A stretch of DNA of 64,000 nucleotides from Ceratodon purpureus (Eukaryota > Streptophyta > Bryopsida > Pseudoditrichales > Ditrichaceae). Both the position numbers and the translations under genes were made by a program. Where the stretch lies: NCBI GenBank assembly GCA_014871385.1, contig CM026427.1, forward strand, positions 864,068 through 928,067. The letters run 5' to 3'. A model generated the notes under the pieces. It was not told where the DNA came from. It did not search any database and saw only the letters and a list, made by a program, of their open reading frames with translations. This document shows positions 29,652-63,346 of this stretch, piece after piece (positions within the stretch are counted from its first letter, which is position 1; every line of letters begins with the position of its first letter).

Positions 29652-30594
29652 CATATGGCGCCGGCGCCATATGCTCTACATTACGCTAAGAAGATTTCAA
29701 AATAATAAGAAGCAAAATTGAATCGATTCAAATAATCCGCAAGCATATGGCGCCAGCGCCATCTGCACAGGCAACCCGTCAAGCATACGTAGCGAATCTC
29801 ACAGCATTCCCAGAGTATAAATTACCGACCATCCCGAGGACTCAGAACTAAAAGAAATCAATATCCAAACCAATGTGAAACACGAGACCCAAATGTAAAG
29901 ATTGCTGGTATGGTCTACAAAGATCAAATCAAGCCCTTGGAAACTACGAGGCCAGGATATGGCGCCCGCGCCATGTGCACAGGGATATCGTTAACCACCT
30001 GTGACGTTTAAATAGGCATTCACAGAAGTCCATTAAAATTCCCTATTTGCGACTCGGTTAAGCTTCCGTTGAAATGAACCGTCAGATGTAACGTAACTGG
30101 TTTCAGAGCTCATCAGTTTCAAGTAATCGATAGAAAATTCACAACCCCCATATTTGAAAATTCACAAATCACTACCGGAGGGTAAAACCGCAGTCATGCC
30201 TCGTGAAAATTGATTTTTTAAACAACGAGATTTAAATGTAGACATGCCGCCAGCGCCAAGTGCAGCCCACCAATGCAACGGTAAAACACGAATTTCCAGT
30301 ATTTATGATGACCAAAACGAAGCATAGATACACAAGCCAAACTGAGTATCTTCAGATTCATTCAACAAAGTAAATCCGGCTACAAATAAAGAGAATAGTG
30401 TGCCAAAGGTTCTAGAGAATTTCTCGCCCGACTATCACGTAAACTGAAGGACCAGGCTTGTAAACAATCGCTACTATGTTATACCACAGAGTCCGACTCC
30501 ACAATTGTGACGAAAGTCCACCACACACGCACCCAAAAATTTGTAGGTTCATTAAACAATATAGTCAAGTGCATAGCTAATGGCGCTGGCGCCA
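29652..30594. promoter_or_regulatory. Palindrome cluster A (five copies)
   Basis: Copies of the TGGCGCCGGCGCCA palindrome core start at 29656, 29748, 29960, 30245 (degenerate) and 30581. The first sits inside a perfect 22-bp palindrome (29652-29673) extended by CATA/TATG. The cluster lies 3' of the RING-like gene at 30.8-32.3 kb. No gene was recognised to its left. No ORF spans it. Function unknown; see the findings. Confidence 0.8.
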
Positions 30595-30834
30595 ATCAAG
30601 CTGGATAAAATGATGATGGATAACCAAAACAACCACAAGTCCAGTTGCCTTACCATATATAAGTCCAGTGGCATGATGGACCAGTAAAACGACAACTATC
30701 GATCAACATCGCTCCGAAATGAACGGCAGAATGGAACACACGCGATCCAGATCATTGCGAGACATTTTAACTTTGAAATGCACACTAACATTTACACCCA
30801 TCGATCAAACCGGTAAAAGCAGGGATCCACCTTC

Positions 30835-32303
30835 CTACTTCGTCTTTCTGCGGGGTGTAGTGGACTTTTCCTTCTTCACATAGTTCAGGCCTCCAATATC
30901 AGAGTTCAGATGTCGTCGTTTCTTATCAGAGTCTCCACCTTGCATGGAACAGCCAGCTTTCATTGAATCTGCAATTAAAATATGCAAATAATGGTTAATA
31001 ACAGCTAATCATCTACAACATATGCAAAGAGAGGTGAATTTCAAGTCACACGAATGTTCGTTCAAGCTATTCAGTAACAAATCTGTACACATACAGAATC
31101 CGGATAAACCTATAAAGAGCCACATGAGAAGAAAAACATCCCATACGAGAATGCTTAGGAAGCAGAACCTTCAACTTTGAAAAATCCGAAGCTCAACAGC
31201 CAAAGCTCGGGGAAGCCTTGGTTGCATCCTGGATTAGCACAAGTCCCGGAACATGAACTCCGCATAGCCGCACACCAAGGGTGATACATACAGGAGCATG
31301 CCGCTAGAATCACGTCCAGCTCTGGAAAGTCCTGCAAACAAAGAGCACATGAACTTATCGTAAAAGTCTTACCTTCGTTGACGGACGGCGAGGACGATGC
31401 GATATGCGGGTTAGGAGCCCTCGTCAGCGTCATCGATGAGTTTTCCGAAATTGCTTTGAGGTCATTCTTGATCAGGGTTGCCCCTTCTCGATGCATCCGA
31501 ATACCCTCTGCGAGTGATTTCAGGTCCTCAACGGCAGTCTGAAGCTCAGACACGCTCGCAGAAAGACGCTCTTCATTGTGCATAATATCCGCCTTCAATA
31601 ACAGAATCGCCTGTTCCTCCCGCTGGAATTCCTTCTTATACCACTCAGATAGGTCTTCATCACCACTGTTCTGTACAAGATTCTTCACATGTTGCCACTT
31701 TGACAGACCCAACTCGGAGGTAATCAACTTCTCCCTCATTCCCCTCAGCTTGGTCTCAACCTCACGACGCTCCAAATCACCAACCACAGGCAGCTTCTCC
31801 TTGAGCATTGATACACGATCACTGGCGGAACGGTGCGCCGACAGTGCTGCATCGGTTTCCTTCTCAGCACACTCACGGTCCGCCTCGAGGCGCTCCACGA
31901 TAACCTGCAAATAGGTCTTCCTCTCATCAGGGTCGCAGTAAACGACAAGCGGATCATCAACACCATCAACTTTTTTCCCACGCCATCGGTCTTCGGCATA
32001 CTTGGCCCAGTTCATTGGGAGGTGATGGCTGACCTCGAAAACAATGGCTCGAGCGAAACTCTCAGGTATATGACTCTCGGGAACCTCAACGCACTGGAAT
32101 ACCGCGGGATAGAGCTCCGAGACACGAGCCTTCACTTTCTCCGACTTTGCTGATTTGTAGCAATATCCTCTATGACTTTCCCTCTCCCCAAACATGAGTC
32201 TAAGCTCGTCGTCCGAGACATGGTGACAATCCTTGCTGGGATCAAGACCCACATTCGGCAACCCGACCCTGCTAACATCTAACTCCCGTCTTCCATCAGC
32301 CAT
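30835..32303 (-). CDS. Orphan RING-like zinc protein, copy 1 (two exons)
   Basis: Exons 32303-31169 and 30968-30835 give 422 residues. The N-terminal part contains LDPSKDCHHVSDDELRLMFG, VPESHIPESFARAIVFEV and PMNWAKYAEDRWRG. The middle (about 150-290) is charged and heptad-rich, a likely coiled coil. A C-terminal zinc motif (about 319-360) has C-x2-C-x13-C-x-C-x2-H-x2-C-x10-C-x4-C, followed by W-x2-SFGF. The last exon encodes a basic tail with KKRRHLNSDIGG and PRRKTK, a probable nuclear signal. The splice is supported by the same phase-1 junction and HLNSDIGG tail in copy 2, although the donor here (GTTCTG) is weak; unspliced, the protein would end VEGSAS at 382. The zinc motif resembles RING variants, so E3 ligase activity is possible but inferred. 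Confidence 0.8.
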
Positions 32304-32789
32304 TTCCGAAAACGCACACAGCTCTCACAGACTTCCAACCTCTCAGAGTACTCTTCCACTGCGCTCTCCACATACAATCGCAATAGACGACCCTGAGAGA
32401 ATGAATCGACGCGGAAAACCAAGGTGATCATAGGTGAGTTTGCCTTTCTAGTGTTAATTGTCTTTCTAGTGTTAATTGACGCCTTGAGTTGTGTGCGTAA
32501 GGTGTCAATTCTACATAATTGCATACAGACTCATGAAGACATGGACGCTAAGTAACAACGCCCAGTGGCTCATGCAATCATTACAACAAACATTGAAGTT
32601 CTAAACGGTCATTTCAGATTGAATAAACAGTGATTGCGCAGTCATGGGAATCATCATCGTATGGTGGCAAGCAAATCCGGATAAATTTGAACTGCATCGA
32701 TCTTGATTTTTCATAATTTCAAAATATTAGTAGATATCAAATCATACCGAATACCAGTTTAAGAAGTCTTATAATCAAATTTGTTTCTT

Positions 32790-32870
32790 TTGTATATTTT
32801 CATTGGTAATAGAAGTGCCATTTGTCCAAGACAAAAAAAAAAAAAAAAAAACAAAAAAAAATTGAACAAA
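32790..32870 (+). mobile_element. Short poly-A-tailed retroposon end
   Basis: TTTCATTGGTAATAGAAGTG followed by CCATTTGTCC and a long A-run is closely similar to the insert at 45617-45692. It is read as the 3' end of a truncated LINE or SINE. No clear target duplication was found. Confidence 0.5.
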
Positions 32871-35800
32871 TATATGTATGCGTTTCATGTACCAAAGGTA
32901 GGGATATCAAGAAACAAATTAAAAATGAAGGAAAGAGAGACGAACAGAAGAAGAGAACCATTTAATGGAATATAAGAAATAAAATAATAAATTTAAAGTT
33001 ATGGAGGATATCAGAATTAAGAAATAAATTAGAAATAAATCATAGTCGAGAAGAAGTAAAAACCTAGAAATGAACAAGAAAAATAAAGAAAGATGAAAAG
33101 AATTAAGAGTCTGTAGAGATTAAAGATGGAAGGAAAACGAAAAATGAGAAGGAATGCAAAGTTGAGTAAATAAGAACGACGTAATTTATATTACTTAATG
33201 ATAAGTGAAAAAAAAGGAAGCTTAAACGAAAGAAAGTGGAGAAAACATGTTAAAGGCAAAGGTAACAATAAATGACTGTTTCGTTTTAAAATTGATAATT
33301 AAAAACCATTTTTTCTACTCAAGGATCTTCTCAATTTCATACTTCTTAGTGAACTCTTTCACCCATGATCACGTTTTTGGTTAAATAAGTGGGACGAATG
33401 GACCTCTTTCCATATTAGGAGTTAACAAAACACCAATGTAGACTGAGTTTATCAAAGAAGTCAGCAGGCAGCTGCTTATAAAGATTAACGTAAAATAAAC
33501 TCAAACTTTGAACCACGACGTAGAATAATTTAGTAGCCGAAGTTGTACCTAGGATGAATCTATGATTATGTACTCATGCTGCAGCTTCTCTAGTTTGTCT
33601 CAATTCTATATTTAATATTTACAAGATTCACGTAATCTATTGTATCATTTTTTTATTTTTTTTTGAAACAAGAGAGTGAAATCTCATCGTAATGAAGTGG
33701 AAACAAAGACCGCAAAAACCCGACGAGACGTAATCTATTGTTTCTATAAACTTCTTAAGGTCCTTGGTGCTTTTGAAGACACAATCTAGGAACCGTCTTT
33801 ATTAATTTTTAAATAGTCTTGAATAATTTTATCTAAGTGATTTCTAGATTAAAGTGTTTAAATAATTTTATTTTTAAATAAATAAATAAATAAAAAATTT
33901 GATATTGATGAATTTGACTAATTAAAGCAGTTGAATATTCTTCAAATAAATAAAAATTGTTATTTTGTGCATCGTTTTTTTAAGGCCTAAAAATCATTGA
34001 TTTGATTGAATTCTAAGATACTCAATGGACAACGAATGCTATAGTTAATTTAATGAGAATTTTTCAAATAATTCAATGGGAAATATGTAATCCATTTTCA
34101 AAACCGTATTTTTATATATAAAATTTGTTTTTATTAATTTTTATATATGAAATTTGTTTTTATTAATTTCAAACTTTTTGACAAAAGATGCCGAAGAAAT
34201 TTTTAATTTGCACTCGTTTTTTCTTCATTTGATCCCTACAAATTCCGTCTTTATCTCTTTAGATTAATGGAACGGAAAGGTTGAAAATGATTGGTAGAAA
34301 AGAAGTCATATGGAAATCTTTAAATAATAGTATCATAATCAAAATTTGGTGTCAAGGTGCCCGTTATTGCAGCAGCCTAAATATCCTACACGTATGATTT
34401 CAACTTTTCACTTCAAATAATTATAATTATTCAATACCAGAAACAAAATCACATAATTATTTGCATTCAACACGAACAACATGATTCTATAGATAAAAAT
34501 CTTCTTCAAATAATATACATTAAACAAAAATGTTGAAATCTTTAAATTATTGTTTGAATGGTAGCCTTATTAGGTTCATTAGAGTGCAAAAGAAACGTCC
34601 TCTGACATTGAAGGCGAGTTATACCTTAACCAAATTAGGCATAAACACATACTGTAAATGACATTGTTGCTCTCAATCAAAAGTATACAAATTTGTTAAA
34701 GCCTTGTAAATCAAAGCTCTTCATATCATTGCCAATGTTACATACTTTACATTCAACGACTCGCACTCTCCACTACGTGAGCTAAATTCAATATCTTAAA
34801 ATCACAGTAAGGTATCTCTTTTTGCTAGAATTTCAAATATTAGTTTTTTTACTAGAACTTCAAATATCTTTTTACAAAAGTCTACACGCACAGCGAAGCG
34901 CGCAATCTACAAAATTATCCCCTCTAATGTAAATTGTATGTTTTAGAAATAATGATGCATTTTAATTAATCTTTAAAAAACAAGTTTAAAGCTTCATTCT
35001 ATTTTCGCGTGCATAACTGTATTTTACAAATGTATTTGAGAATAATCATATTATACACTTAAAAAATATGATATAAAAACTTAAGAAAAATTAAATAACT
35101 TAAAAAAAACATTTAAATAAAGATATGTGCTTGCGAAAAAAATAATTAACAATAAAGAAAAACTTAAGAAATTAATTCTTCCATTTCGCTAACAATTGTA
35201 ATCATCAACAAATGAACTAGAACAAATAATAAAAAATATCATATCGATATTGATATTCTAATTTGTCTCATCTGCTTTGAGCTATTGATTTTGCTTTACA
35301 ACTAAAGCGGTATGAATCTTGATTTAAAATAAAACCGCTATTTCTAAGATGATTTTTTTAACTCTTGAAAGTCCAATCTGTATATCAATTTTTTTCAAAA
35401 TGAACATTGTTGAAGTAATTGATAAGGTAAACGTTACCTTCATATTTTAACGCAGCTGTATTTCAGAGTCTTTGTTATATCTTTGTTATGCTCTTTACGT
35501 TGTATTTCTTCTAGTTATTGTTTTTGTATATATATTTAACAATTCTCATAAAAAACATACTGAAAAATTTATTGCTAAATGCGTAAAAATTTTATTGCTA
35601 AAAATTGGTAAAAATTTCCTTAACATTTTATATATATCTTCAATATATTAGATCTAACTGTAGGCTGAAGTATAAAAAAATAAAAAAAATCTTAATTAAC
35701 TTAAGCACGTGAAGTGAAATACACATTTATTTCATTGTTAATTTCATTCTATAAATATTCTTGACATTTCAATATTTTTTATTAGCGCTTTGAAAATTTT

Positions 35801-38697
35801 AATTGCACATTAAAAGAGATAAAATTAATCAAATTTATGGTTATCTTAGATTAAGAATACATTTAAATCTATGTAAATATATTCAATGGCTTTCTTTTAA
35901 AAGTGCATTGCACTATCAAAACATTGTATTGCGATTTCTAAATGATTAGAGATTTCAAAAAAGAAGTAAAGCTTAGTATGAATTCTGGACAGTTTGCGCG
36001 TTAATCGCGTTGCATCGTAGCACTCAATTGAGGATGCCAACCTTTGTCGGCAAGGTAATTGCTTTATGACAATCAGTGTCATTGAAATTCAACTTATACT
36101 TTTATTTCTTCATTTTTCATTTCATCAAAGAGCAATGAATCTTATGCTCTTACAAGCATTAACTTTATGGTATTCATTAATAATGTAATATGATATTTTA
36201 TAAACACAAATTAATTTTTATAGAAACGTTACTAATAGTTTTATTTATTGATCATTACATAAATCAATTTATATTGTGATTTTCGTAAAATTTATCAAAT
36301 GCTTTTTGATATTGAAGTTTTTCGTTTGACTATTCGAAAGTTACTTAGACCTCAATTTTTTTACTTTAACTTTATACATAACTTTTAAGACTTGAATTAA
36401 AATCCGATAATAAAATAAAACCTAAAAAATTTAGAAGTTTTTATGGCTAAAATTTAAATAAATTCAAGCAACAATTTGTTATTCATCTATATTTTTTTAA
36501 GTTGTTGATAATTATATTAATTACTTTATAAATGTATCTTTGAATACTTATATGATGAAATTTGCTTATTTAATAAAATCTTCTGTAGAATATGTAAATA
36601 ATATCTCTAGCTTAGATTTTTCTGAAAAACTTAATAACTTAGTTTGAATTTTTATTAATATAAGATTAAGAGCTTAATAAAATAAAATTGAAATTTGCAT
36701 TTAACATTATTTACATCGTTACGTAGGTGCACGTGCAAATATATATTTAATGATTAAATAATAACTTTTTATAATCTATTTTCAAATATTGTCTCTTCTT
36801 TGATGTCCAATCCAAAACACAGTTTATCGCCGTGCGTCACTTGTAGTGCGCGTATAATCTCTCAGAGCCAGGTAGTCGACCATTGTTCACTAAATCAAAA
36901 GAATGAAGACATTTTACAATTTTAAAACCAAATAAAATAAACAATCTGACTATATATTGTTATCGCCTTTTAGAATAAATAATCAAAAAAATTAATTTAG
37001 TAATAAGATCAATCTTTATAAATAAACAATGAATTGTAATAATAAAGATTTAAGCAACTTGAAGCTAACTAATTGAGCAATTCGAGAAGCATTAAACTAT
37101 GGACAACAAGCCCGTTAGAACTCGTTGTTCGTGACGTCTTAGAGTTATATCAACAATGATTGCAGACTAGCAAGCGATGATCTTTTTAAATTTTGGCTTA
37201 TATAGCCACTTTATCCGCCCAAATAATATTTCAAATAAATGAGATTCAAAATTATTTGAAGAAAAATCATAAATGTAATAATTTTAAAGAAAAATATTTA
37301 TATTTATTATTCTTATTAATTTTTGGTTACAAATCAACTTATTAAATTATTCAATTTATATTAAAAAGAAACATAAAAATGACTAAGTTTCAATACTTTT
37401 GCTGTAATATGGGAGTTTGGCACCCCATTCATCGAAGGAGTATAGTCAATTTTGATTCAGTCTGCCTATTTTTTTACAATATGAGTCAGTGATTCAACTT
37501 GATAAGGCTATGCTCACTGCGAAGGACGCACCGTGAGAATACTTACTCTAAAATAATATACTTCTTTTCAAGAAAACGTATATAATAAATGTCAAGATGA
37601 ATCAATAACATCTAGTTGTAAGTTGCTATATGTTTATGGTATTTTGGTAAATGCATAAATAACAATAAAAATAAAATGATAATGATCAAGAGTTTTTGAA
37701 ATAATCATAAGAATTAGCTAAGTATATTCATCGACATTTACATTCATTATATAAGTTGAATTAAAAAAATAACCTAGAGAATAATGATTTTTGAATTACA
37801 ACAACGTATATACATGGTTGCAAAATCTTAAAAGAAGAATGAAATGCATGTCAAATTTTGTTGTGATAAAAAAATTAATTTAGAATCTCTAGCTCTGAAT
37901 CAATCATATGCTGAATGGTACAATCGAGGTCCATCACATTTTCAAAATTCTAAAAAAAAGACATTATAGATTATTATTATTATTATCATTACTATTATTT
38001 TAAGCAAATTAGGATTCTATGATCGGTTGTTGTTGATTTAGAAACATTCTACCATATATATAGTAGTTTAAACTGTGAGCACTGATGGCCCTTCGAAAAT
38101 ATGTTGTGCAACGTAAACCACATAAGTAGCGAGATTGGTGCACCACAAGTGTTTTGATTGTACATAGAATATGGATGGTTCTACTATTGCTAGGTTTCTT
38201 TCTTCGCATTGAAATTCTAACAATGTCTCAGTTCATCTCACTTTATACCGTAATTACCAATGTCAAAATGTATTTATTGCCTACTTAAATGATTCTTATA
38301 CTTTCACGTCAGAATCTATTAAGCAAATAAGCTTTGTGCCCTGGATCGCGGCTCTCCTTTGCTATATCGATCTGTTTGAAAGATTTATACGTGTCCAAGA
38401 CATTCGTGATGTCGTTGATGGACGCATTTCCAGGTCATCCAAATATTCAATATAGTATATCCGGAGTTTCTCCATATGCCGTCTCAGAGACGCGATTTCT
38501 TATTTCGTGTCAGCAGTGTCCTTCATTTTTAAGTGAATCTGATTGCATTCGATATGTGTGCTGTGATGGCCTCAAATTGTCAATGACTTGATAGTATTAA
38601 CTTCAGGAGTTCAAACTTAAAGCCAGCTTGGAACTACCACCATCCGCACATGGGTAGATTCGACTTACGCTAGGGAGCTGCCTCCCGAGTTAGTATA
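32871..38697. other. AT-rich gene desert
   Basis: Nearly 6 kb of very AT-rich DNA. From 32.9 to 33.25 kb it is purine-rich on the plus strand (GAAAGAGAGACGAACAG and similar). No supported gene. One stretch at 38.3-38.6 kb keeps open pieces on both strands that might be a coding relic, but I cannot assign it. Confidence 0.55.
33644..33727 (-). mobile_element. Truncated retroposon with 14-bp target duplication
   Basis: An 84-bp insert beginning with a T-run, so it lies on the minus strand with its poly-A tail at the left. It is flanked by ACGTAATCTATTGT at 33630-33643 and 33728-33741. The body (complement of GAGTGAAATCTCATCGTAAT) resembles LINE or SINE 3' ends. Confidence 0.7.
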
Positions 38698-38705
38698 GCT
38701 GGTTT

Positions 38706-38982
38706 CAGCGTTTTTTTTAGTGGCTATATTTCGCCAGATTTCTCTACAAAATATGGCATTTCTCTTTTGTTAAGGAAAAAATTGAGAAAAAATTGACTTT
38801 TTTCGCCATATTTTCTCTACATTTTTTGTGAAGATAGCCAGATTTTGTGAAGAAGACCACCAAAATATTAAGAAATTCTATTAAAACATGATTGTAAGCT
38901 TGAGATTTCGCCAAATATTCTTTCCCAATATTTTTCAAGTCGCCAGTTAGGCTTCAAGGAAAAAAACATAAAAAAAACACTG
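38706..38982. mobile_element. hAT-type MITE with 8-bp target duplication
   Basis: A 277-bp AT-rich element with imperfect terminal inverted repeats (CAGCGTTTTTTTTAG at the left; CAGTGTTTTTTTTATG read from the right). It is flanked by exact 8-bp repeats GCTGGTTT at 38698-38705 and 38983-38990. Eight-base target duplication and CAG-type ends are the marks of the hAT superfamily. The element has no coding capacity. Confidence 0.82.
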
Positions 38983-39029
38983 GCTGGTTTAGTTTACGTT
39001 CGTACTTATTCGAAAATTCTTAAAAAATA

Positions 39030-39137
39030 CATATAGGTTTCCCGTTGGTTTCCTAGGAAGCGTGTGGTTTTTTAGGTTGTGCTGCGGTGTGTTTGTTCTG
39101 TGTCCTTTGGCTGTGGAATAAAGGAATAAAAAAAAAC
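39030..39137 (+). mobile_element. Retroposon 3' end, GCTGTGGAATAAAG family
   Basis: GGCTGTGGAATAAAGGAATA followed by an A-run recurs in opposite orientation at 44539-44600. The upstream part is G/T-rich (GGTTGTGCTGCGGTGTG). It is probably the 3' end of a truncated LINE. The left border is unclear. Confidence 0.45.
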
Positions 39138-39828
39138 TTAATGTACCTATGTGCTCGACTCCCACCTTCATACAGAGTTAAGGTGATATAGCTCCGGTGC
39201 TAAGCGAGCTGAGTGACTGATTTCAAAATAAAGACCCGGACTTTTCGTAATATTAGCGAGATTGTTCGGATTCCTGTCATACTATTTCCAATGAAGACAA
39301 TAAAATTAAGAATTATATTGGGACCTTGAAAACATACTTACAGCACATTCAGCACATTACACATCACCAATGCTTACTCATAGTACAGCTGAAAATATCG
39401 TTAATTGGGAAGTACGTAGTATTGAATCACTTTGAGACTCTGATCAAGAAGTTTGTATCTGTAGGTTTCCTCAGGCAGAAAAGTTAGAATAACTTGGACA
39501 TGTGAACGGGTTTAGTAACTGGTGGTCTAAACTGCCTAACTGCCGAATGGTCTGAACTGCCTAACTGCCGACTATACCCCTCCCGCTAGTGGGATCTTAG
39601 CTCGATTTTCGCATAATCAGCCTCGCATAATAGCTCGTATTCCCATTTCATTCTGCACATACAATCACATTGCAGATTCAGTCGTGGTTAACCTCGCAGG
39701 TATCCCTCTCTTACATCGTCGACCGATTTGCAGCGAATTCTTTAATTATCCACTTAATTATCAAGTTCAGGAGCAACAAGCAAAAATCGTTGATCTCTGA
39801 TAAAACGAAGCCAAATATATATCATGGA
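39138..39828. other. Spacer 3' of RING-like copy 2
   Basis: No gene seen. A short direct duplication (GGTCTAAACTGCCTAACTGC and GGTCTGAACTGCCTAACTGC, about 39522-39570) is the only structure noticed. Confidence 0.5.
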
Positions 39829-41331
39829 TCATTTACCTTCCTCCGATTCTGATTTCGGCTTCAGCTTGTTCTTCTTCGTGCATGATCTCTTCTCCTTGAT
39901 AGAAGTCGCCCCTCCTGTATCTGAGTTTAAGTGCGATCCCCTTTCCTCTGATTCCGATTCCACCTTGATCTTTTTCTTTTTCGAAGATCTCGGCGACTTT
40001 ATGAAACTCGCCCCTCCGATGTCCGAGTTTAAGTGTCCCCTTTTTCCACGGGGTTGTCCAGCATTCCGTGGCACACCAGGGAGAAGGTCGTCTACATAAT
40101 GATCGAGTTAGACCAAGGCCATAGAACAAAAAATCCAGATCTCGGCAAAAATGAACTTGAAGTACTTGTAATTACCTTCGATCTGGAAGAAGCCGAAGCT
40201 TTTCCGCCATGCTTCTGAAATGTGTTTGTTACAGGTCGGGTCGGCACAATTGTCTTGAAGCAAACACTGGACCGCTGCACACCATCGATGATATCCGCAA
40301 GAGCAGGGTGCTACGATGATGTTGAGGTGTGAAAATCCTGAACCACACAATGCGCATTCCCCAATTTTGATGACGATTATCTCCTCAGCAGACGTCTGAA
40401 TGCGAGCATCGTCCTCAGCAAAGGAGCTCGGAGCAGATATCATCGGACTCGGGCAATTTTCTTCGAGCCACTTCAGAGCACGCCCTAATCGGTCAGCCTT
40501 TACTCTTGTAGCCCTCTCTTCGGCCTCCAGCTTCTTCTCTTCCTCGGCATGTCGAGCGATGTCGATACTTGAGGCTTCCAGACGCTCTTCCTTCCTGCAA
40601 ATCAGCTGTTTGACAGCAGCGATCCCAGTCTCTTCGCTCTGTATTTCTTCCTCGTGGGAGGTCACGTCGGCTGAGCTCCCGCGCTCAACAATTATTGACT
40701 TGAGCTCCCGCTTGAGGTCTTCAAGCTGATTGATAGAGGACTCCAGCACTTCTCTCAGCCGTTTCAGCTCCGCGTTGGCCCTGTCCCTCTGTGATCCCGT
40801 GAGTGGGCGTCGTTGCGACGCAACTAGTGTGCTGTGAAGCTCCCTAGCGCGACCATGGGCTACAAGTGCTGCATCGTGTTCCACCACTGACGCTTGAAGA
40901 TCTCCTTGATACCTCTTCAGAATCATTTCGAAGTACCCATGACCTCGAGCAGGGCCTTCATAGAGAATTGGTGGAGTCTGTCCAGGCTCTGGCCTCTGCC
41001 CATTCCAGCGGTCCTCGGCGTATCTAGCCCAGTTCATTGGGAAATTGTAGCAGACCTCGGAGACAACACCGCGGGCAAAGCTCTCGGGAACAAAGGATTT
41101 CACTGGCATCTGCGTCGTCTGCCATATAGGCAGGTACACCTCCTTGCAGCGTTCCCTAACTCTCACTGATCTCGAGTTTCTATAGTTGTATCCCTTATGA
41201 TACTTCTTCTCTCCGAATATAAACTTTAGAAATTCGTCACTAACGTGGTTGCAATCCCTACCAGGGTCCAGACCTGCGCTTGGGAGCCCAATCACTCTGG
41301 CAAAGTACCCATCGCCCCCATTCGAAGCCAT
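39829..41331 (-). CDS. Orphan RING-like zinc protein, copy 2 (two exons)
   Basis: Exons 41331-40176 and 40091-39829 join at a phase-1 GAAG|GTAATT ... TAG|AC junction to give 472 residues. It is a paralog of the gene at 30.8-32.3 kb. Shared N-terminal strings are LDPGRDCNHVSDEFLKFIFG, VPESFARGVVSEVCYNF and PMNWARYAEDRWNG. A charged coiled-coil middle follows. The zinc motif (about 326-367) has exactly the same spacing (CALC ... CSCGYHRWC ... CADPTC) and the same W-x2-SFGF ending. The last exon is Lys-rich, with two related blocks (GHLNSDIGGASFIKS and SHLNSDTGGATSIKE), an internal duplication, and basic strings KKKKIK and KKNKLK. It is a likely nuclear protein and possibly an E3 ligase; both points are inferred. 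A palindrome lies about 470 bp upstream. Confidence 0.85.
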
Positions 41332-43006: not shown

Positions 43007-43106
43007 TGGCGCCAGCGCCATGAGCACATGCCCGAGTACAAGCGCCATGAGTCGATAGCTCTTGCACGCATGCACTTGGCGCCAGCGCCATGAGCCCATG
43101 GCCGAC
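42990..43106. repeat. 70-bp direct duplication carrying the palindrome
   Basis: Two units offset by 70 bp each contain GCACTTGGCGCCAGCGCC followed by ATGAGC and CATG, with a partial AGCGCCATGAG between them. The pattern shows local duplication of a palindrome-bearing segment. Confidence 0.75.
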
Positions 43107-44640: not shown

Positions 44641-44698
44641 TGTTACCTTACTCATCGTAAACTGTCCAATGATTATGTTTCTTATGTTATTGGGCATT

Positions 44699-49830: not shown

Positions 49831-49844
49831 TCTCAGCTAGCCGA

Positions 49845-49858
49845 TGGCGCTGGCGCCA
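49845..49858. promoter_or_regulatory. GC palindrome at the F-box-like promoter
   Basis: TGGCGCTGGCGCCA, 75 bp upstream of the ATG and immediately upstream of the TATA box. Confidence 0.78.
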
Positions 49859-50958: not shown

Positions 50959-51382
50959 GCAGTCATCGTGATTGATTCCTATTATGACGGCTTTTTGGCA
51001 CCGCAAGGTTGGTTCGAAACGGGGCTATGTAACACTCTATTTTGAATACTGAGGCAGCCTGTATATAAATCCTGTGAGAGTTTTCAGGTAGTTACGTTTT
51101 AACAGCTGCTAGCGCTTCTATTAATGCTATGCTATACCATGTTGGACATTAAGTTTTTGTGTATCCATTTTTCAATATTCATATCACTATCATATTCATG
51201 GGTATTCTTCTGAACAAGACAATTGTGTTGTCGACCTACGCAAATTAGGGCAATCGCTTTCATCTCAAACTACTTTGGCTCACACCATATCTGAATCGAC
51301 AGACACTTGTGTATGAAGCTTAGTAATTTGTTATCATCAGCGTGTAGGATAGCTTAATAATTAAGACTGACTCGGTAGCTTA

Positions 51383-51396
51383 TGGCGCCAGCGCCA
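51383..51396. promoter_or_regulatory. GC palindrome TGGCGCCAGCGCCA
   Basis: An isolated copy 425 bp 3' of the beta-rich orphan gene. It is the last copy before an 11-kb gap without any. Confidence 0.75.
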
Positions 51397-54300
51397 TCTC
51401 CTCAACCTGTGAATTATTGGATCCTAGCCAGCTGATACGTGAGTCACCAAAAGAATGCAGAATGAAATCGTGCTTCTCTGCGATCATGGCACAGAACTCC
51501 CCTTTTCAGTAACTAAGCATGCTTGAGTAATTAAGAATGCTTGCGCCAAAGAGGTGTCAACAGTATTCCATTAAAGGTCCTTTTCCTTGAAGATTTTAGG
51601 AAATGGATAGACGATCTTAATTCTAAAGTTTAACGATAACAGCAGTTGGATGAAGTGTTCTCGGACGAGCTTTCAGGATAATATACATGGAGCTGAACTC
51701 AGAACATTTTCTATCCATGAAAAACCAAACTGGTTGATAAAAGTATGTTGAACTTTTATGATAAATTATTCGTAAATTCATTTCAACGCGTAGGCTTTAA
51801 ATTTTTGTGATAGTGTCCTAAATGTCTATTATAATCTCGAATGGATTTCCACCAAACTGCTGAAGATGAAATAGGTTGAGACTAATGACTGGACGACAAG
51901 TGCGCTTCAATATAAGAAAAGTAGAATTTCTTTAATGGATGTGTTAAGGCTTCCAATGGAAAAATCACAGAACACAAATGTAGAAAGAAAACAAAATTGC
52001 TGTAAGTGGAATAATCAAACAAGCTTCGATGGATTTGAATTCCTTATAAATTACATACGTTATCCTTTTTTAGTTTTATAGACACGCAAACTTCATTACG
52101 TGTTGCAAACGTAGAAATTGCTTCTCATTTTCATACTTAATAGGATTTCTCAAATTCATCATAATCATTTTATGCTAGAACCGCCTTTCAACTTTGCAAG
52201 TTTCATTCTTTTTTTTGGAATAAAGATAAGCCTTGAGAAGAACTTAAAACTTGTCTCAAGTATGAGAGAAGTTTTTTGTTCATACGTTGAGGAATGGTAC
52301 TAATACAAAGAAAATCATTTAGTCTTTCGCATTTGATATTCACATATACGGATTTAAAATCATGTATGTGATTGCATTTTGGACTTGAGAAATCTAAATT
52401 TCTAATTACTATAAAAGAATTAATATTCCACCTAGCGTCATAAGCAATCTATCATTGCGATCAGGATTTTTGTTCCTACACATGTTGATAACATATTATA
52501 GGTAGTTTGTTTCAATTTCCTAGTAAGGCCCAGAATGACTTTAATTTGCTTTCATAGTCTCTAATGAGTAAAAATTGGAGTGTTAAGATCTAAAAAATAA
52601 CTTTCCTAGGTATTCATATGTAGCTATAGTCAACATACGTAGGAAAGACAATTAACTTACGTAGCAATTTTATTTAGAAAAATACGTGGAAATGAATTTT
52701 AATGACTTTAAGAAGAAATCTTATGAACTTCATTCCAAAGATGATACGCAAGAAATATTAAGTAAAGTCTCCTTCTGCATATAGCATATACAAATGATAA
52801 TATATGATAGCTGGCTTGGTATACAATCTAAAGTACGCGAGACAGTAGATTATAAAATTAGGAACCTAAATTTCTAGATTTAATGGATGATAAGTAAAAC
52901 AGTATAGAAGTTTAAAGTGATTTGATTGTCATTAGATAATCTCTCAGTTTTGTTTTTTCGTGTAGTGTAGCATATTTTTACAGCTTTTACCAAAATTCGT
53001 GAAATTGTTGTCATATAATATTTAAATCATGTAGATAATTGTCATTAAAATACAAACAAACAAAAGTAGACAATCCAAGTCGCTTTGGAATAAATGAAGT
53101 CAACAATTACTTAGAGAATTGGTTCGCAATAAGTGATTATGTACGTGCTCTTGATTTCTGTGATTATGTACGTGCATTAATACAAAAATTGGTCATAATG
53201 ATCTTTACTTTCAAAATATACCCAAATGTGTAGAAGAGTTTTAAAAATTGATTTAATCTATTGAAGTATGAAAATTTCATAGCCTTATCAAATAGTATTA
53301 TTTTCGTTTCAATTAATTCTTATGTTAATTAACAAAAAACATAATAAAAATTCTAGTTACATCTATAAGGTTTAGGATCTTAAAACGATAAAGACCCTTC
53401 TTATCCTTATGTTGACATTGATTTCCAATTTAGATGTTCATTTCTCAAAATGACAAAAACTACGGTGAAATTTTAAATGAACAGGACTTTTTGGCGCGTT
53501 CATACTGACACTTATTTATATAGATGTTGGATTCAGAGTATGACAAAATATGTGCTAGAATTCTATATGCATATGTATAAGTTACTTATTATAGCTTATA
53601 AGAGCGGAATTACTATGAAGTGTTATGAAAGATATTTTGCGATGATGCTTTTGATTTCACTACTCTGAATCAAACAACATTTCAGTACAAATTACCGTTA
53701 CAAAAACCAAATAAGTACTTTCATAGCTCATTGGATTTAATCATGCGATTGCCAAAAGAATATCACTTTAGAACTGAACCACAGTGAATAAATAGAATAA
53801 TATAAATGAATGAATTTCTTAAAAGGACAAAGATGTCATAGTAGACAAATTTTAAAATACTATACGTAAATTGTTTCTAATAATAAAATAAGTAATACAT
53901 TATCATGACATAATCAACAAATTTTAAAGCACAAAAAAAAAACATCAAAGAATTATAAAACACTCTATGTTTTATAAGAAATATTTATCACGGAGATAGT
54001 TAAGTTATATGAACAGATCTACGTAGTATGTGGCAACTTGTTGTTATTGGAGGAAAAAAACAAACGCTACAGACATATTAGTTATTAGAAACAAACATTG
54101 TAATGAAGAATAGAATTTTTTTGTCTATGCAGCATTACAGCAAATTCCCTTAAGTCAAAGAGTTATGACATAATTGGGATGAATAGCATAATAAGAATAG
54201 AGAAGGTATGAAAATTGAAATCAATGAAGTAGTAAATGACAAAATGTGGCAGAATAGCAGAATATAAATAAGAAAGAAAGAAAAGATAGATGTTAATCTA

Positions 54301-55440
54301 AAAATATCCATCATGAAATCACAACAAAACTTCCCACCAATATCTTGTCATGAAGACAATTAGTTTTTTCCAACTTTTGACGTTATTTTGCAATTTCAAC
54401 TATAAGATCTTACACAAGCCTTACGAATAAATTATTTTCCAAATTAAACTCTTAAAAACAACACCAAAGGTAGTATCAAATTTGTTTAAGGACATAAAAC
54501 AAATTCTTTTTCTTCCTTCAAAATGGTGAATTCGCATCTTCAATGAAACGATACAACATCATGTCGTATATAACAATAAACTTTTTCTATTTTTAATTAA
54601 GGAAAATCATTGAAATTGGATTTGAACAAGCCACATATCATGACTTGTCCTATCTTTTACATCACTTATTGAATTGGACTAATTTAAGGCATCTTATCCA
54701 AAAAAAATCTCTACAAAGTGATGATTTTTCAAATTATTATTTAGAAGCACATATGAAAAGATTTGCTCACTGCCGGCATTGAGATATTTGACCTTCAACT
54801 ATTCATAATTTTTCCATTGCATAATCAAATCTGGTGATTGAGAAGCTTAGGCTGTACATAATGACCTGAAGATACACATACAATATCAAGAACAAGAAAC
54901 ACGAGTCCATGTTCATTAATAGACATTTCATTTCAATCATAGATAATTGACTCTTACTCAAGTAAATGTATAACGATGCATAACAATGTCGATTAAAATA
55001 CAACAAAATGTTAGTTCATTACAATATGGAACTAGGATGCTAAGATGTTATCACTATTAAAAGCAAAAACACCATTGAAGATGAATAAGATGCGGTGATA
55101 TACAAAGTCAATTCACAGATCGATTACAAACATTTCAGCACCGTACGAATATAATAAATTATTCACTTAGTTTTCATATATTAGTGTTATTTTTAACACG
55201 ATGAAGAAACGATAAAATGATCTGTTCAATTGTAATAATTAAGAAGATGTGAACTAAGCATATAGAGGCGATGACACATGTACCGTTTAATTGATGGAAA
55301 TCACTTAATTTACTTAAATTGATAAGATTTCAGTTTGTGTTGACAATTCAAAATAGTACTTAGGGTAATGAGGAGAATGAAAAAGATTCATTGTGAAATT
55401 ATAGTATACGTTAAAGTAAAAAATTGAATAAAGTGATGGT
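51397..55440. other. AT-rich gene desert
   Basis: Four kilobases of AT-rich DNA without supported genes or palindromes. Short ORFs here are AT-biased and featureless. Confidence 0.55.
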
Positions 55441-56005
55441 TTAGGGGGAGTCGGAATTGTGAGTGGGGGCGCTGGGGGAGAAGGGTCGGGTCGGAGGAGA
55501 GGAGGACGGGGGAGAGGAGGTCGGAGGAGAGGAGGTCGAGGGAGAGAGACGGGGTCGGGTTGGGTGCGGGGGGTCAGGAGAGAGGGTCGGGGAGAGAGGG
55601 TCGGGGGAGAGAGGGTCGGGGGAGAGAGCGAGGGTCGGGGGAGGGAGAGAGGGTCGGGGGAGGGAGAGAGGGTCGGGGGAGGGAGAGAGGGTCGGGGGAG
55701 GGAGAGAGGGTCGCGGGAGGAGGAGAGGGTCGGGAGAGTGACGGTCGAGTGAGAGGGAGATGGGGGAGAGGAGAGGGAGTCTGGGGAGAGGGGTGGGGAG
55801 GCGGGAGAGAGGCAGTTGGAAAGCAGTCGAGAGAGGGTGAGACGGGGGGAGGGAGAGGGGCAGTCGAGGGAGAAGGGTGTCGGGAGAGGGGTGTCGGGAG
55901 AGGGGGTGACCGGAGAGGGGATGTTCGGAGAGGGTGTCGATAAAGGGGGTGTTGGTGGGGGTAGGGGGAGAGAGTTGGGTGAGAGGAGGCGGAACCAGAG
56001 ACAAG
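55441..56005 (+). repeat. GA-rich minisatellite
   Basis: About 560 bp almost without pyrimidines on the plus strand apart from regular TCG. The core tandem unit is 19 bp (GGTCGGGGGAGGGAGAGAG), repeated several times near 55630-55720, with looser variants on both sides. It is sharply bounded by AT-rich DNA. ORFs on both strands here (for example 441-1004 bases into this block on the minus strand) are artefacts of the repeat. Confidence 0.85.
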
Positions 56006-59000
56006 GACGACAGATAAATTATTAGAATTTACAACGTAGCGACAAAAAAAATATTGTATTTATTTTATAATTTGTGCTTTTGGTATTTCTTAACTATACT
56101 ACAAACAATTCTAAATCTCAATGCAAATTGTTTCAAGAAGCTCTACCTTCTTTTAGTGATAATAAATAAAAAACAAGAAAACAGTTATTTATTTTTATAC
56201 AATGCATATATTAAATTACTAAGGAGCATATTGTATTAAGATTCCTATTTGACAAAATTAATAAAATAAGATTCACTACTACTAAATAGAAAGTGTGTAT
56301 AATGGTTCCAAATCATATACTGTCTAGTTTATTAACTAATATTATAAAAAAAATGTTTATGATATATGTAGTTAAAACAATAACACAGTTATATGCTATA
56401 GATGTAGTTTTAAAAAGAATTATTTACTAATATCTACTAATATCATAAAAAAAAATATCATAATTTACCAATATAATTAAAACTAATTAGGAATATTTAC
56501 CAATATTTAATAATATTTACTAGAATAACTTAAAAAAACGTTCATGATATTTTCAAATTAAATATATAATACAGGTATATGATTTTTTAAATGAAGATTT
56601 TAATACATTATTTGAAATTTTTTTAAATGAACATTAATACATTTTTTTTTAAATACCTAGGAAGTGGCAATGGATTTTATAAAATACAGCTTTTACTAAA
56701 GTTACTTATTGGAATAAAATAAAAACAAATAGTAACTCTCTAAAATTTTGTAAAAGTTTGAGAATTATTTTGATTGTATTGATATTTATTACAATTCAAT
56801 TCATTATTAAATTCAAGTTATCTACTACTCGGTTTTCGAAAAAGACAAATTTATACTATTCTTTAAATAATTATAAATTAGCGAGATGATAGGCACTTTT
56901 AATAAATTCATAATTATTTTTTCGTGCTCTAAATTAGCAAATATGAACGACTCTAAGTTGGAAGTTGAGATTAAAGATGGAACCTTGAATCTAAACATGG
57001 TATTACGTATGACATCTAGATCCGAAGGCCGCTTTTAACAACAAATTCTACATTGGTTCATTCAATTAAGTTTCATCATTTTTTCATATTTGGAGCAGGA
57101 ACTTCCATTATCCGCAACAGTATTCGGAATTATGTCCGTAATTATTTTTAATACAAATTCATATGCTAACCTATTCTTTTGCCCTCAGAAAATTTAGAAA
57201 GTTTATAAAGTACTTCATGGATATCCTTATAAAAGAAAAATGCAATAACATAAAAATACAACGAAAAAGTAAGAATACAGATGAAAAACATTTTTATACT
57301 TTAGATTTTTATACTTTAACAAAGCAATCGCTTTGCATCTTCATACAAACAGGATATTCAAAAAGATTTAGCTTATTTTTAAAGGACTGTTGATAAGATT
57401 ATTGATAATCCTACAGTTGTAACTCTTTATTTTTTAATCTTTTCATCTTTCATCATTTTTGATTGTTCGCACTAATTTATTATTTTTAAGTAAACGAATT
57501 TTGCATAACATTCACAAAACCTATATCTTCAATTATGATGTATTTGAAAGAAGGAATTGATGGTTTTAAATGATTTTAAAGATTATGACAAAAATAAAAT
57601 ATTTTTTACAAATTTAAATTATGCTTTCAATTTTTAAATTTTCTTCAAATAAGTATCAAATTTATCAAAATCAAGAAGTTATGATGCAGAAAAGCGTTTA
57701 TACAAAATTTACCATAAATTATTCACTTGACTCATTCAATCATAATAGTTTTTGAACATTAGAAAATCTCAAATATAATACTGAAATTTATACAAGCATA
57801 TCTTATTATGGCATTACTAACTTAATTTTTCAACATATAGTTATAGAACGATTGATAAAATAAGTGAATTCCAAGGTTTTAGCTTTGCTGTACCAGTTTC
57901 ATCAGCCGTTTATCTGATGTGTATAGCCCCTCTTAGAATAGATCAGTAAGGCGGTGTCGAAACACTATTAGCGTGTTGCTCTCGAAAAGAATGACCTTGG
58001 ATTACGCCTTTATGCACTGCAGAATATAAACTCTTATTAATTTACTTTGTCATACTCAAGATTATCCAACACTACAATTTAAAAACTTATAGATGAGTTA
58101 TTACTAAATTGACATCTATGTGATAAATCCTATGCAAGTACATATTTTTATTTTCTAATTTTAATTGTGTTGGTGAAACGTAATAAAAATAAAATAAAAT
58201 TATTAAATGTAGAGCAGTAATACATTATACTTAAATTGTCTATCGATAAATTGTTGATGCTTATAGCATCTAACAGTCACTCTCTAGTTTTCATTGACTT
58301 AAATTTAGCAATACAATAAAAAATAGAACAATTAAATAAAGATGTTCATGCTTATTGATACTCAATTTTTTCTTTAAGAGACCTAAAGTATACTTGATTT
58401 TGTAGTTTAAACCTTCTTCTTGATTATGTTTAATTAAGAACATAAATCTCTGTAACATGTTATCTTTAATCTTTTTTAAACTTCGAATTACGTTGTTCTA
58501 CCACTTATTCATCTATTTCTTATTATTGTGTTTCCATTCTACTTTATTTCCTCTAATATTCTTCATTTCATTTCTCTTAAATCCTATCAATAGTCATTCA
58601 TTTCACTTAATTTCAATAGTCATTCCTTTCACTTGAATTCAATAGTCTTTATCTATTATCGTTTTTTTTTTTTTTTTTTTTTGGTATAACTATGCTCTCC
58701 TTCACTTTTGTTTAATCTCTTTTGTTTAATCAATGCAATTCACATTCTTTCTTCTACATTCCATTTCTCATCACCTTTCTTTCTTCTCCACAACCAAATT
58801 TCCTTCATTTCACATTCTTGTCCTCACCTCTCATATTCATTGTCTTCAACTCACTTTACTCTCTCTTTCTTTGTGTATTTGATGCGTGAATATCGCTATG
58901 AGATTAGTGATTGCTTACTCAAACATTTGTTCACCACATCTATTTTTATTCTGTCATTAATTTTATATATATACATGTATCTTAACATTTTAATTAACTT

Positions 59001-61489
59001 GTTATGCGCTACGTACATTATTATATGTTGACTTCTTTTTTTGTACTTATATTTTCCATGATCAAATCTTGTTCTTCTCTTGTTATTTCTTTATTATCTT
59101 ACAACAATTTTAAGCAATGTTTTTTTTCCAGTACAATAAAGAGTTTTCTTTTGGGGGTTGAATATTATGGGAAGTGATGAAATAGCCAATCTATATTTGA
59201 GTTACTTAATTGCATTTATCAAAAATTGTCATTACGTCTTAAACTGCATGAACTCATATTGCATTAAGCGGCCATTTGCAATTTGAGTGAAGAAGCAATA
59301 TTGAGAAGTTTTAGAAATGGGCATCTAAGATGAGGTTGCAACGAAAGCTTAAAGCTCGGTTCATTGTAGAGATAGAATATGTTTGCGTGTTTAAGATCGA
59401 AGTTTGAATGTGATATATATTCAAAAAGTGTCGAAAACCTCTAAATTTATATTTTAAACAATTAATGGTTTTTTTTACATTTTGCACAACTTATTTTGTA
59501 TTGCCATTCCAGTTCTTTAATTAAGCTCACTACCTTATTTTTATTCAATTCAGTACCATTGATTAATTTATTCCTTTATAATTTACTTCTTTATTTGCTT
59601 TTTATTCTAACATTCATTTTGTCTTTATCATTTTGTTTTCTTCCCTTACTCTTACCTTTTAATCCCGGACTTTGTTTATGCTATTCATTTTTTTCCCTTC
59701 ATTATCATCGATTGACTCACCCATGCAATTAATTTTAATTTCTAGAAATTTTATATGAGTTTTATACTCCAATCTGGTGTTTTTTAATTTGTAGTTTTTT
59801 ATCCTAAAAATTATTTAAATTATTTTTAGCGCTGATGTTTGTATATTATTTGCATTTTGTTGTAAAAGAATTAAACAATAATTAAATTTTTAAACTTTTA
59901 GAGTTCAACTCAAATTATTTTTCTTTTATTTGTCTACGCACAACATGTTATAGGAGACTCATCTTTACAATGCTTTTCATCCTTTTTAGTGTACTCCAAA
60001 TAAATTACTTTTCCGGAATGACGTCATTCTATTAAAGCTAGTTTTTAATCCTTTTAATCTTCATTTACATATAATATTATTTTACTTGTTTATTTGATTC
60101 TGTTCTATCCCTTTCACACTGTAGCGTAACTTTAATTCTTTTCGAATAAATCGTTTGCCTTGAATTCCATTTGGTTCATCTAACTACTTTTCTGTCATCT
60201 TTCATTTGTCCTCACATCAATTCTTATTACTTTAGAATAACTTTTATCGTGAAATTGTCGTTACATTCTGATTCCATGTTCTATTTCTTATACGAATTCA
60301 GCTAATCACTATAATTTTTTTTACTTCACCTTTTATTCTTGTTGTCTTCTTATTATCCTTCGCGTCAAAAGTAATTTTCTATTATTTGTTTTATTCCTTT
60401 TTACTTTAAGAATTTGTTTCTAATTGGTCACTTCTTGATTTTTAATTTTTTTATTACATCTCTTTTGTTTTTATGTCCTCCCTTTCTTCTTTCTTTTATC
60501 GATTATACCTTCTGACTGTATACTCGACCTCTGTCTATTTAATATTCATCTTTCTTCGCTCATATCACCACTGTTTCTATAAAATTTAATTTCTAATCTT
60601 TTGGAATCAACAAAAACCTTTTATTCCAATGAAATTAGTTAAAGAGACACATCGCCACCACGAAGATCAAGAATCGCGAAGCAATTTACAGGACTATAAT
60701 TAGTTTTAATATATTCTGACATGTTTTAATTTTTTTCTTACTAAAACTAACCTCTTTTAATTTCCTACAGCTTGTCTTATTTCTTACAATCCTATTTGAA
60801 TCATTTTTTTTGTGTAATACTTCATATTGTCATATATCAGTATTTCTCGGTCATGTTTGATATCTGTCTTTTTTTCCATTTAGGGTTATTCTCGTTTTGC
60901 GGATTTGGAGGTCTCAAGCACCTAGATTTTCAAAGCCTTGTTACGTAATCAGCTGTGCCTAAATACAAGATTATGATCAACGGGGAGGAAAAAGCATAAA
61001 ATAGAACTTCCTAAGCTCCTTGCGTCGGCGGATCTGATTACTTCACGGGACAAGGTCGCGCTAAATTTTGATGAACGTAGTCGAAACTTCCAATCGATAA
61101 ATTTAAATACTCTAAACTTCAAGTCTTAGCACTCAAAACTTCAATTTTTAAACAGTCCACTTGCCACAGATTCATTCAACGTTGTCATACTCTTCCAGCT
61201 GGAGGCCTTATCACTCGTACCAGATTTTGGTATTGTGGAAAATGATACTGAATGCGGAAGAAATATCCAACGAGAATAATTCGTAACGTTTTATATTATC
61301 AATGTGAACGATCAGGCCTTACAATAGAATAGGACAGAGTGATATAGCCGCTGAATTCCAATATCTAGGCTACGATGAGATGATAATTCGATCGCAGTTA
61401 AAACGGAAAAGTGCGTTCGAGCACGAACAACTATCAAAACGACTGCTGGTAAAGCTTCGGAGTTGTAGACAACTGCACTTCATCAGAGA
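56006..61489. other. AT-rich gene desert with a pyrimidine-rich tract
   Basis: No supported gene. From about 58,440 to 60,640 the plus strand is strongly T/C-rich over some 2.2 kb, including a run of about 20 T at 58663-58682. No GC palindrome occurs in this stretch. Confidence 0.55.
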
Positions 61490-62547
61490 CTACTCTAGTC
61501 TGTGCCGCTTGTGGACGGGTGTTGGCGGTGAAAGACCACCATTGCCGTGCTGTGTCGAATGAAAATTGATGTCCTCACCGTTGTTATTGTCTGCGAGATT
61601 GAGAGATAATGTAAGTACATCAGCGTGACCGAGGAAGTAAAACAAACTGCACTGATTGATTAAAATAATAAATCTCAAACCCTACCATTGATGCTATCGT
61701 CGTCCGACGATGATGTTCCTTCCACGCTCTCGGTCTCTGTCTCCGAATCCCGAACAGCTGGAAACCCGTAACTCAGCATCCAGCGTGCCGGAAATGGTTC
61801 GCGGCAGCCTTGCCGGCAGCACGCGGGGTACATGGCCACTCGAATTGCCAGACAAAAGATGTGATACAGGTGACCACATGGAGAGATTTCTACCTCGTGT
61901 GCTGGGAAGCCTATCCCGCACATCTCGCACCTTCGAGTCTCGTCCGTATTCGAGTTCCTTGGACTTATAGTCCTACTAGACAGCCTCAGCGTGGTGTGAT
62001 CACGATACGATCGCAGGGTAGCAACTGCGAGGTCGTGCTCGGTCTTGAGCTCTTCGAGGTCTTTCCGAAATGTGTCAATGTCGCGCTCGGCTTCCAACAG
62101 TTCCAATAGAACGGACCGTCCCAAGCCGTACCCAGCATGATTTCGGAGTTCGGATTCCGCGCGGGCTCGCTGGCATTTCAGTTGGAACAACTTCTCCTTC
62201 AGCTCAAGCAGGTTGAGGCGCGTCTCTTCGCGTACCGCAGGGTCAGACGTTGTTGCATCAATCTGCGAAGTCTGAAGTGTGGCATCCTCGACCGACTTGG
62301 CACAACGCAGATACCTGTTGTGAATGTCGCGCAACTCTCCTTCCACTTCCATGTAATCGTCCGCTGCAACCCCCTCTTCAGGCAACATGGGTACTTCGGC
62401 GTGGAACTCCGCTGTAAGCATTCGCTCACGGACCTCGGCGAGTCCAAGTCTCCTGCCTGCATCGGACGACAGACGAAACTTGTGTGTTAGGATATCTGAA
62501 ATTCGGGAAGGACGAGGAGAAGACGGACGGGCCACGGAACTCGGCAT
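61490..62547 (-). CDS. Orphan RING-like zinc protein, copy 3 (two exons)
   Basis: Exons 62547-61686 and 61590-61490 join at a phase-1 AATG|GTAGGG ... CGCAG|AC junction to give 320 residues. It lacks the N-terminal region shared by copies 1 and 2 but has the same plan: a charged coiled-coil middle (about 65-200) and a zinc motif with identical spacing (CEMC ... CGHLYHIFC ... CCRQGC, where the fourth ligand is His as in a true RING). It then has W-x2-SYGF, a Ser/Asp-rich linker and a short last exon with basic HKRHR. The start MPSSVARPSS is chosen because a TATA box (TATATA, about 62640) lies inside the longer frame that opens at 62676. MPIYRN at 62619 is an alternative. A palindrome sits 215 bp upstream. 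Confidence 0.82.
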
Positions 62548-62637
62548 TTCTCTAAACTGTAGACTGGAATTTGCTAGTGTAGGAAATAGGCTTGAAACAA
62601 GATTACGATAGATGGGCATATGACTAGTTAAGCAGCG

Positions 62638-62648
62638 AAATATATAGT
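62638..62648 (-). promoter_or_regulatory. TATA box deciding the start of RING-like copy 3
   Basis: ACTATATATTT on the minus strand, about 95 bp upstream of the MPSS start and inside the longer frame. This argues against the longer N-terminus. Confidence 0.55.
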
Positions 62649-62762
62649 ACAGCCAGCGAGTTCCATAAACCGTCATTTAAGTCATCAGTGGCGCAAAGTT
62701 AATATGGGTTTTGGCGGCCAAATTAGATAACCCATAACTTCTGAATGTCAGCTCATTCCAAA

Positions 62763-63346
62763 CGGCGCCGGCGCCATATCCCATCCTGGTCACCTTATTT
62801 TTATGGCTGGTTGCACTGCATATTTGAGAACCGGCCCTGGCGAAACCCGAGGATAACTTGATAGGACTTAGAATGGCTAATATGCGGGAGTTTAGGCAAG
62901 GGAATTTACTGCACTGCCATCTGGAGCTCCATCCGCCACAGGGGTCTAAGGTAACTCAGTATAGGATCAGTCAATTGTTGAGAAGTTCTTTGACACCCTG
63001 ATTTTCAGAGAGATGACGGTTGTATTTTACTGTGATGCAATGAATTTTCGTTCTTTTGGAGAAGAAATATAATAAATAGGAATGAAGCAGAAAATGAAGG
63101 GGGGAGCAAAAGAGAAAATTGAATAAAATGATAGCAAAAACAAAAGAGAAATAAAGTAAAACTGAATGGCGCGAGCGCCATCTGATGCGTACGAAGTAAT
63201 TGCGCCACAAGCTGGCAAGTCGACCACAAAGATGTAATTCTTGTAAAGATTATTTATTAACAATCTCCAAGGGACAGCTAATATTCTATATCATGGTATC
63301 CAGAGTATATTAGAAAGTAAATCCAAACCACTTGGCGCCGGCGCCA
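62763..63346. promoter_or_regulatory. Palindrome cluster C (three copies)
   Basis: Cores start at 62763 (CGGCGCCGGCGCCA), 63167 (TGGCGCGAGCGCCA) and 63333 (perfect). They occupy the interval between the 3' end of the SWIM gene and the promoter of RING-like copy 3. Confidence 0.78.

Follow-up and report, generated by a model that had tools for sequence, protein, structure and literature searches.

Palindromic sites read by dimeric proteins are already known as a kind, and the animal NRF1 site (GCGCNTGCGC) is, by analogy, the nearest in architecture to the element described here, with GC-only inverted half-sites of the GCGC type, a 2-bp spacer and a homodimer as its reader; NRF1 is reported also to bind ATGCGCCGGCGCAT, with CG at its centre, though some 3-fold less strongly (PMC10810270). 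The element in question is a palindrome of the type TGGCGC-NN-GCGCCA (scanned as the consensus TGGCGCCGGCGCCA), which occurs at 19 sites spanning 29656 to 63346 of a 64-kb stretch of the genome of the moss Ceratodon purpureus (contig CM026427.1, positions 864,068 to 928,067, forward strand; this whole stretch of 64,000 nucleotides is called the window). Its half-site is TGGCGC, in contrast to the TGCGC of NRF1, and YGCGCAYGCGCR is absent from the window. To our knowledge, no plant NRF1 has been described.

The first-pass annotation of the window had pointed to a resemblance to E2F sites, and TGGCGCC is indeed common to the palindrome and the E2F/DP site (TTTSSCGC, TGGCGCCA). Upstream regions of Cryptosporidium parvum are rich in TGGCGCCA, which is called E2F in that source and counts in favour of this reading, while E2F sites are described there as having T- and A-rich flanks (PMC3734150). 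The palindrome, however, carries no T-run and instead has two half-sites with a 2-bp gap and outer GCA arms. A T-run flank is present only at chance level, with TTTSSCGC at 4/38 half-sites versus 3.5 expected; CA is favoured at -4/-3, and TTTGGCGCCAAA is found 0 times in the window. The resemblance therefore did not hold up, and it is very unlikely that these are E2F/DP sites.

Among plant proteins, dimers of the LBD/AS2 (LOB domain) family have been reported to discriminate palindromic DNA (PMC10118128). The core published there, GCGGCG, is absent from all 19 palindrome sites, and elsewhere the window holds one GCGGCG and one CGCCGC. Readings as VOZ, FHY3/FAR1 (CACGCGC), GCC-box or tRNA primer-binding sites were rejected by motif tests, as was NFI; one GCC-box hexamer lies at one palindrome site, at 30246. 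NFI is an animal family whose site, TTGGC-N5-GCCAA, has TGGC/GCCA inverted arms as in the palindrome, but the window contains no exact N5 match and a single N6 match. None of the families tested (E2F, NRF1, LBD, NFI, VOZ, FHY3/FAR1 and GCC-box) matches the palindrome. In the portions of the literature available to the search, neither the 14-mer nor its CCAG/CTGG forms were printed, and the 14 papers listed for the latter forms each contained GGCGCCGGCGCC once; the motif as such is apparently previously undescribed.

Number, anatomy and spread of the palindrome

Of 20 starts listed in the first-pass annotation, 19 matched TGGCGCCGGCGCCA with 0–2 mismatches in a scan of the window, while the remaining one, 43317–43330 (TTTGGCCAGCGCCA), was excluded because it has 4 mismatches and a matrix score of 3.9, against 23.9–38.7 for the 19 sites. 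With up to 3 mismatches, 21 matches were found, compared with a mean of 0.31 and a maximum of 2 in dinucleotide shuffles, so that within the window the motif lies far above chance, as had been claimed; the two additional 3-mismatch matches, at 8292 and 42039, look like background. No copy with up to 2 mismatches precedes 29656, which agrees with the reported lack of copies in the first 29.6 kb. The window, with a G+C content of 39%, is less AT-rich than that account implied. By the matrix, which was derived from the same 19 sites that it scores, the next best match in the window reaches 11.2, and across 20 simulated windows the maximum was 12.6. Moderately decayed copies are almost lacking, although the 3-mismatch and matrix scans would reveal them. 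The only exact 10- or 12-bp palindromes seen at least three times in the window are of the TGGCGCCGGCGCCA type, TA/AT runs and AAATTAATTT, the last with 4 occurrences versus 0.6 expected. Since 43007 and 43077 lie within a tandem duplication of about 70 bp, the sites amount to about 18 independent copies. The palindrome is a real and strongly constrained motif.

A symmetrised alignment of the sites and their complements reads gCAnaTGGCGC-CG-GCGCCAtnTGc (a first alignment of the sites still contained 43317); of the proposed conserved 14-bp core, the nearly invariant arms stand, while the conserved unit is longer, at about 24 bp. The central tetranucleotide is CCGG in 8 sites, CCAG in 6, CTGG in 3, and CCCG and CGAG in 1 each. 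Mismatches are graded by zone, with 4/228 cells in the arms, 12/38 in the 2-bp centre and 41/114 in the outer arms, and relative to TGGCGCCGGCGCCA the 2 centre columns hold 12 mismatches against 4 in the remaining 12 columns (P 7e-8), although these counts treat the two arms of a site, and copies that arose by duplication, as if they were independent observations. The outer bases G, C and A at -5, -4 and -3 are present in 24, 25 and 24 of 38 half-sites, respectively. CpG has been lost from the centre in 11/19 copies and from the arms in 0/38, and the arms are therefore retained while the intervening CpG varies freely. Spacing is also fixed: among 17 inverted TGGCGC..GCGCCA pairs within 60 bp, 15 have a gap of exactly 2 bp and the other two of 29 bp. 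At 43007/43042 and 63167/63202, a palindrome is accompanied by an extra GCGCCA half-site, separated from its left arm by these 29 bp. An E-box (CANNTG) was found at 16/38 arms and at both arms in only 2/19 sites, which rules out overlapping E-boxes as a defining part.

A dimeric DNA-binding protein leaves just such a pattern: the two halves are symmetric and set a fixed distance apart, the arms hardly vary, the centre tolerates change and the outer arms are less strict. A cis-regulatory site for a dimer of this kind, which had been put forward as a candidate and also fits the unrelated flanks described below, is the best-supported reading, with a probability of about one half. The stringent palindrome of about 24 bp would be bound by a single nuclear protein of two-fold symmetry, probably a homodimer, in which GCAnaTGGCGC would be recognised by each subunit and the 2-bp centre would be mainly a spacer; the palindrome would most likely act as a cis-regulatory element in the transcriptional control of adjoining lineage-specific genes. 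Because constraint is graded by position, a dimeric binding site is favoured over decaying copies, and the scarcity of weak sites points to a reader of unusual stringency.

The spread of near-identical cores might also be explained by copying. As to one dispersed transposon family, 200-bp flanks were compared for 157/171 pairs of sites, pairs less than 430 bp apart being dropped. Once palindromes, and A/T runs at least 9 long, had been masked, the mean flank score was 19.5 versus 19.8 in controls, and the best 32 versus 28; without masking, the mean was 20.9 versus 19.8 and the best 42 versus 33. When the six best unmasked pairs were re-aligned, four matched through other palindrome copies, one through a poly-T/A run and one through a short match near 44699/48982, and A/T runs and neighbouring copies therefore account for 5/6 of these high scores. 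No target-site duplication of at least 5 bp was found, either for pairs at offsets 0–5 or for single copies at offsets 0–7. Since masked flanks are at the control level and such duplications are lacking, the palindromes do not belong to one transposon family, and the earlier remark on differing flanks is supported. The copies might instead derive from a tiny palindromic element, mobile or copied, which dispersed across the island and is now decaying. It would be comparable to mitochondrial GC clusters, which are small mobile palindromic elements, and would account for near-identical cores with unrelated flanks and for the local tandem duplication at 43007/43077. Such an element should, however, decay uniformly, contrary to the zonal mismatch counts given above; four-base target-site matches number 6 among 1026 pair/offset combinations versus 4.0 expected, and four-base repeats flank 3/19 single copies. 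This origin is unlikely.

Copies of the exact 14-mer were also found in viral contigs, in at least 120 stretches, of which the ten lowest in G+C were read at the motif; no second copy occurred at the 120 loci among the matches listed. A spacing of 54–84 bp between two copies was seen in one viral stretch, which is a short-unit repeat, and in two bacterial stretches from metagenome-assembled genomes, one of them a tandem array of four. A giant-virus insertion has been reported from the moss Physcomitrium (PMC12344493). Here, five island queries (the alignment of the RING-like genes A, B and C, the SWIM-like open reading frame (ORF), genes E and H, and the ORF at 46 kb, all described below) had no relatives in viral contigs and several genes look spliced, so that a giant-virus origin is unsupported.

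Placement of the sites relative to genes

Rough, hand-made gene models, based on ORFs and a codon score with splice junctions tried, place ten coding units in the right part of the window. The 19 sites, to which no strand is assigned, begin near 30 kb with five recovered by scan and matrix: 29656–29669 (CCGG centre), 29748–29761 (CCAG, with the top matrix score of 38.7), 29960–29973 (CCCG), 30245–30258 (CCAG, with a single arm mismatch) and 30581–30594 (CTGG). They are followed by gene A (30849–32303, minus strand; second exon placed by eye from splice signals, edges approximate) and gene B (39835–41331, minus strand; putative two exons, 472 aa, edges approximate), both RING-like coiled-coil genes, the ATG of gene B being 471 bp downstream of the site at 41802–41815 (CTGG). 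Next come the duplicated pair 43007–43020 and 43077–43090 (both CCAG), 43395–43408 (CCAG) and 43497–43510 (CCGG), the latter two found by scan and matrix, and 43733–43746 (CCGG), 221 bp ahead of the ATG of gene D (43954–44351, plus strand, by eye). The site at 44699–44712 (CCGG, last arm base deviating) lies 248 bp upstream of the ATG of gene E (44947–45335, plus strand; ORF and codon score), which encodes a small, probably coiled-coil protein, and 45568–45581 (CCGG, single arm mismatch) lies downstream of it. An unfamiliar ORF at 46323–46889 (minus strand) has no palindrome site in its upstream intergenic DNA, while an unfamiliar gene at 47441–48732 (minus strand; two ORFs joined as two exons by eye) has one, 48982–48995 (CCGG), 250 bp upstream of its ATG at 48732. 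The site at 49845–49858 (CTGG), which adjoins a TATA-like box, is 99 bp upstream of a gene at 49150–49746 (minus strand; putative two exons, edges approximate) labelled F-box-like in the earlier note and without a Pfam match, and also upstream of the unfamiliar gene H (50302–50957, plus strand), likewise without a Pfam match; 51383–51396 (CCAG) lies downstream of gene H. At the far end, 62763–62776 (CCGG, first arm base deviating) is 216 bp upstream of the RING-like coiled-coil gene C (61506–62547, minus strand; putative two exons, 320 aa, edges approximate), and 63167–63180 (CGAG) and 63333–63346 (CCGG) stand between gene C and a SWIM-like ORF (63396–64000, minus strand), which is cut by the window end, shows a CxC..CxH pattern by eye and has no Pfam match.

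No site lies inside coding sequence (0/19), and 12/19 fall in the 1 kb preceding one of nine gene starts, compared with a circular-shift mean of 3.24 (P 0.004); the enrichment persists when the duplicate copy is dropped (11/18, P 0.004) and against a G+C-matched control (33%, P 0.007). All 19 sites are within 1250 bp of a coding edge versus 88.5% of G+C-matched non-coding positions (P 0.10), and G+C therefore explains their general proximity to genes. A loose TATA-like pattern was present within 300 bp upstream of 5/7 starts checked, at variable distance, which excludes a fixed TATA spacing. No second motif near the sites was significant after correction (best P 0.002 among 74 7-mers). A 16-base sequence, CATCGT(A/G)AACTGTCCA, occurs only at 44653–44668 and 48856–48871 (up to 3 mismatches, both strands), each time less than 130 bp from a palindrome.

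Several observations weigh against a site that controls the adjoining genes through a dimeric protein. Ordinary transcription-factor sites usually show a series of weaker matches, and these are almost absent from the window, which is unusual for such a motif and would need explaining. Leaving out gene D reduces the upstream signal to 7/19 (P 0.044), and after G+C matching it is not significant at 300 bp (P 0.11) or 500 bp (P 0.10). The downstream kilobases hold 10/19 sites against a circular-shift mean of 4.02 (P 0.034), an enrichment that disappears only under G+C matching (P 0.87), and gene A, with its start at 32303, has copies downstream and none within 1 kb upstream. Moreover, the gene models were made by hand, and the P values overstate independence because the sites cluster, with 5 near 30 kb and 5 at 43.0–43.8 kb. 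As G+C matching leaves a signal at 1 kb but none at 300 or 500 bp, placement at promoters is no more than suggestive; the proposed co-regulation of the gene set is weakly supported, with the 1-kb signal in its favour and the shorter distances and gene A against it.

Alternatively, the palindrome might be a chromatin mark with a symmetric reader, acting as a silencing nucleation site or an insulation boundary of the whole gene island and not gene by gene. Near-invariant arms and an almost complete lack of weak sites would be expected here as well, the sites are confined to the right part of the window, and the cluster at 29656–30581 is upstream of no modelled gene. Such marks would not bracket the island evenly, however, because the gene-poor interval 32304–39834 has no site and 50958–61505 only that at 51383, and a CpG observed/expected ratio of 0.95 in the right part (29001–64000) versus 0.72 in the left argues against long-standing dense CpG methylation there. 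This alternative seems possible but doubtful, and the dimer-bound cis-regulatory site is preferred.

Gene content of the window and meaning of the palindrome

Genes A and B are 37% identical, and A, B and C share a predicted coiled coil and a C-terminal CxxC..C..YHxxC zinc-like pattern. The C-terminal tails of A (30849–30976, by eye) and B (39835–40100) both carry a basic HLNSD(I/T)GG repeat, present twice in B. By eye, D and E seem to form another pair of relatives; gene D resembles gene E at its start and looks like a copy of it with the frame broken part-way, and its upstream kilobase holds five palindromes and one remnant. These related genes, together with the duplication spanning 43007 and 43077, would fit a recombination, replication or gene-amplification signal, a role in which palindromes can serve as recombination sites. 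Upstream regions of the related genes, however, have only the palindrome itself or A/T runs in common at the score cut-off used, and the flanks of the copies are at the control level; of the readings weighed here, this one appears the least probable.

Among the island proteins tested, nothing exceeded the Pfam cut-offs, and RING models matched only A and C, at E 0.16 or worse. A search of genome contigs, made with gene B, found no relatives. The predicted structure of gene A, from a 3-row alignment, has long helices, a mean predicted local distance difference test score of 56 and values under 50 for its first 130 residues; against PDB it had no match at E <= 0.001 among 678 listed up to E 10, and RING chains were among the weak matches. 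In addition, the window encodes eL36 (Pfam E 6.6e-41), whose best-scoring solved chains come from plant ribosomes, which places the host among the streptophytes. A copia-type gag-pol retrotransposon ORF at 15214–19521 (1436 aa) is long and uninterrupted, which suggests a recent insertion, and a 26-bp tandem repeat of 3.5 perfect copies (15037–15126) lies immediately ahead of it. A purine-rich minisatellite of the GGGAGAGAGGGTCGG type occupies 55488–55952 on the plus strand, and a 70-nt stretch with 79% identity is common to 32781–32850, upstream of gene A, and 45623–45692, downstream of gene E. Rfam and tRNA searches of the window gave no match.

It might be speculated, though this is rather improbable, that the 24-bp palindrome, together with its dimeric reader, serves as a code for regulation or silencing that is specific to one early-diverging plant lineage, in which it would act on an island of rapidly evolving orphan genes, and that the reader is perhaps itself an island product, such as the coiled-coil RING-like proteins with basic tails. 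If the palindrome is a regulatory site, a 24-bp probe would be a precise handle on a protein governing plant genes without a recognised domain, and a count over the genome would reveal the remaining members of the gene set.

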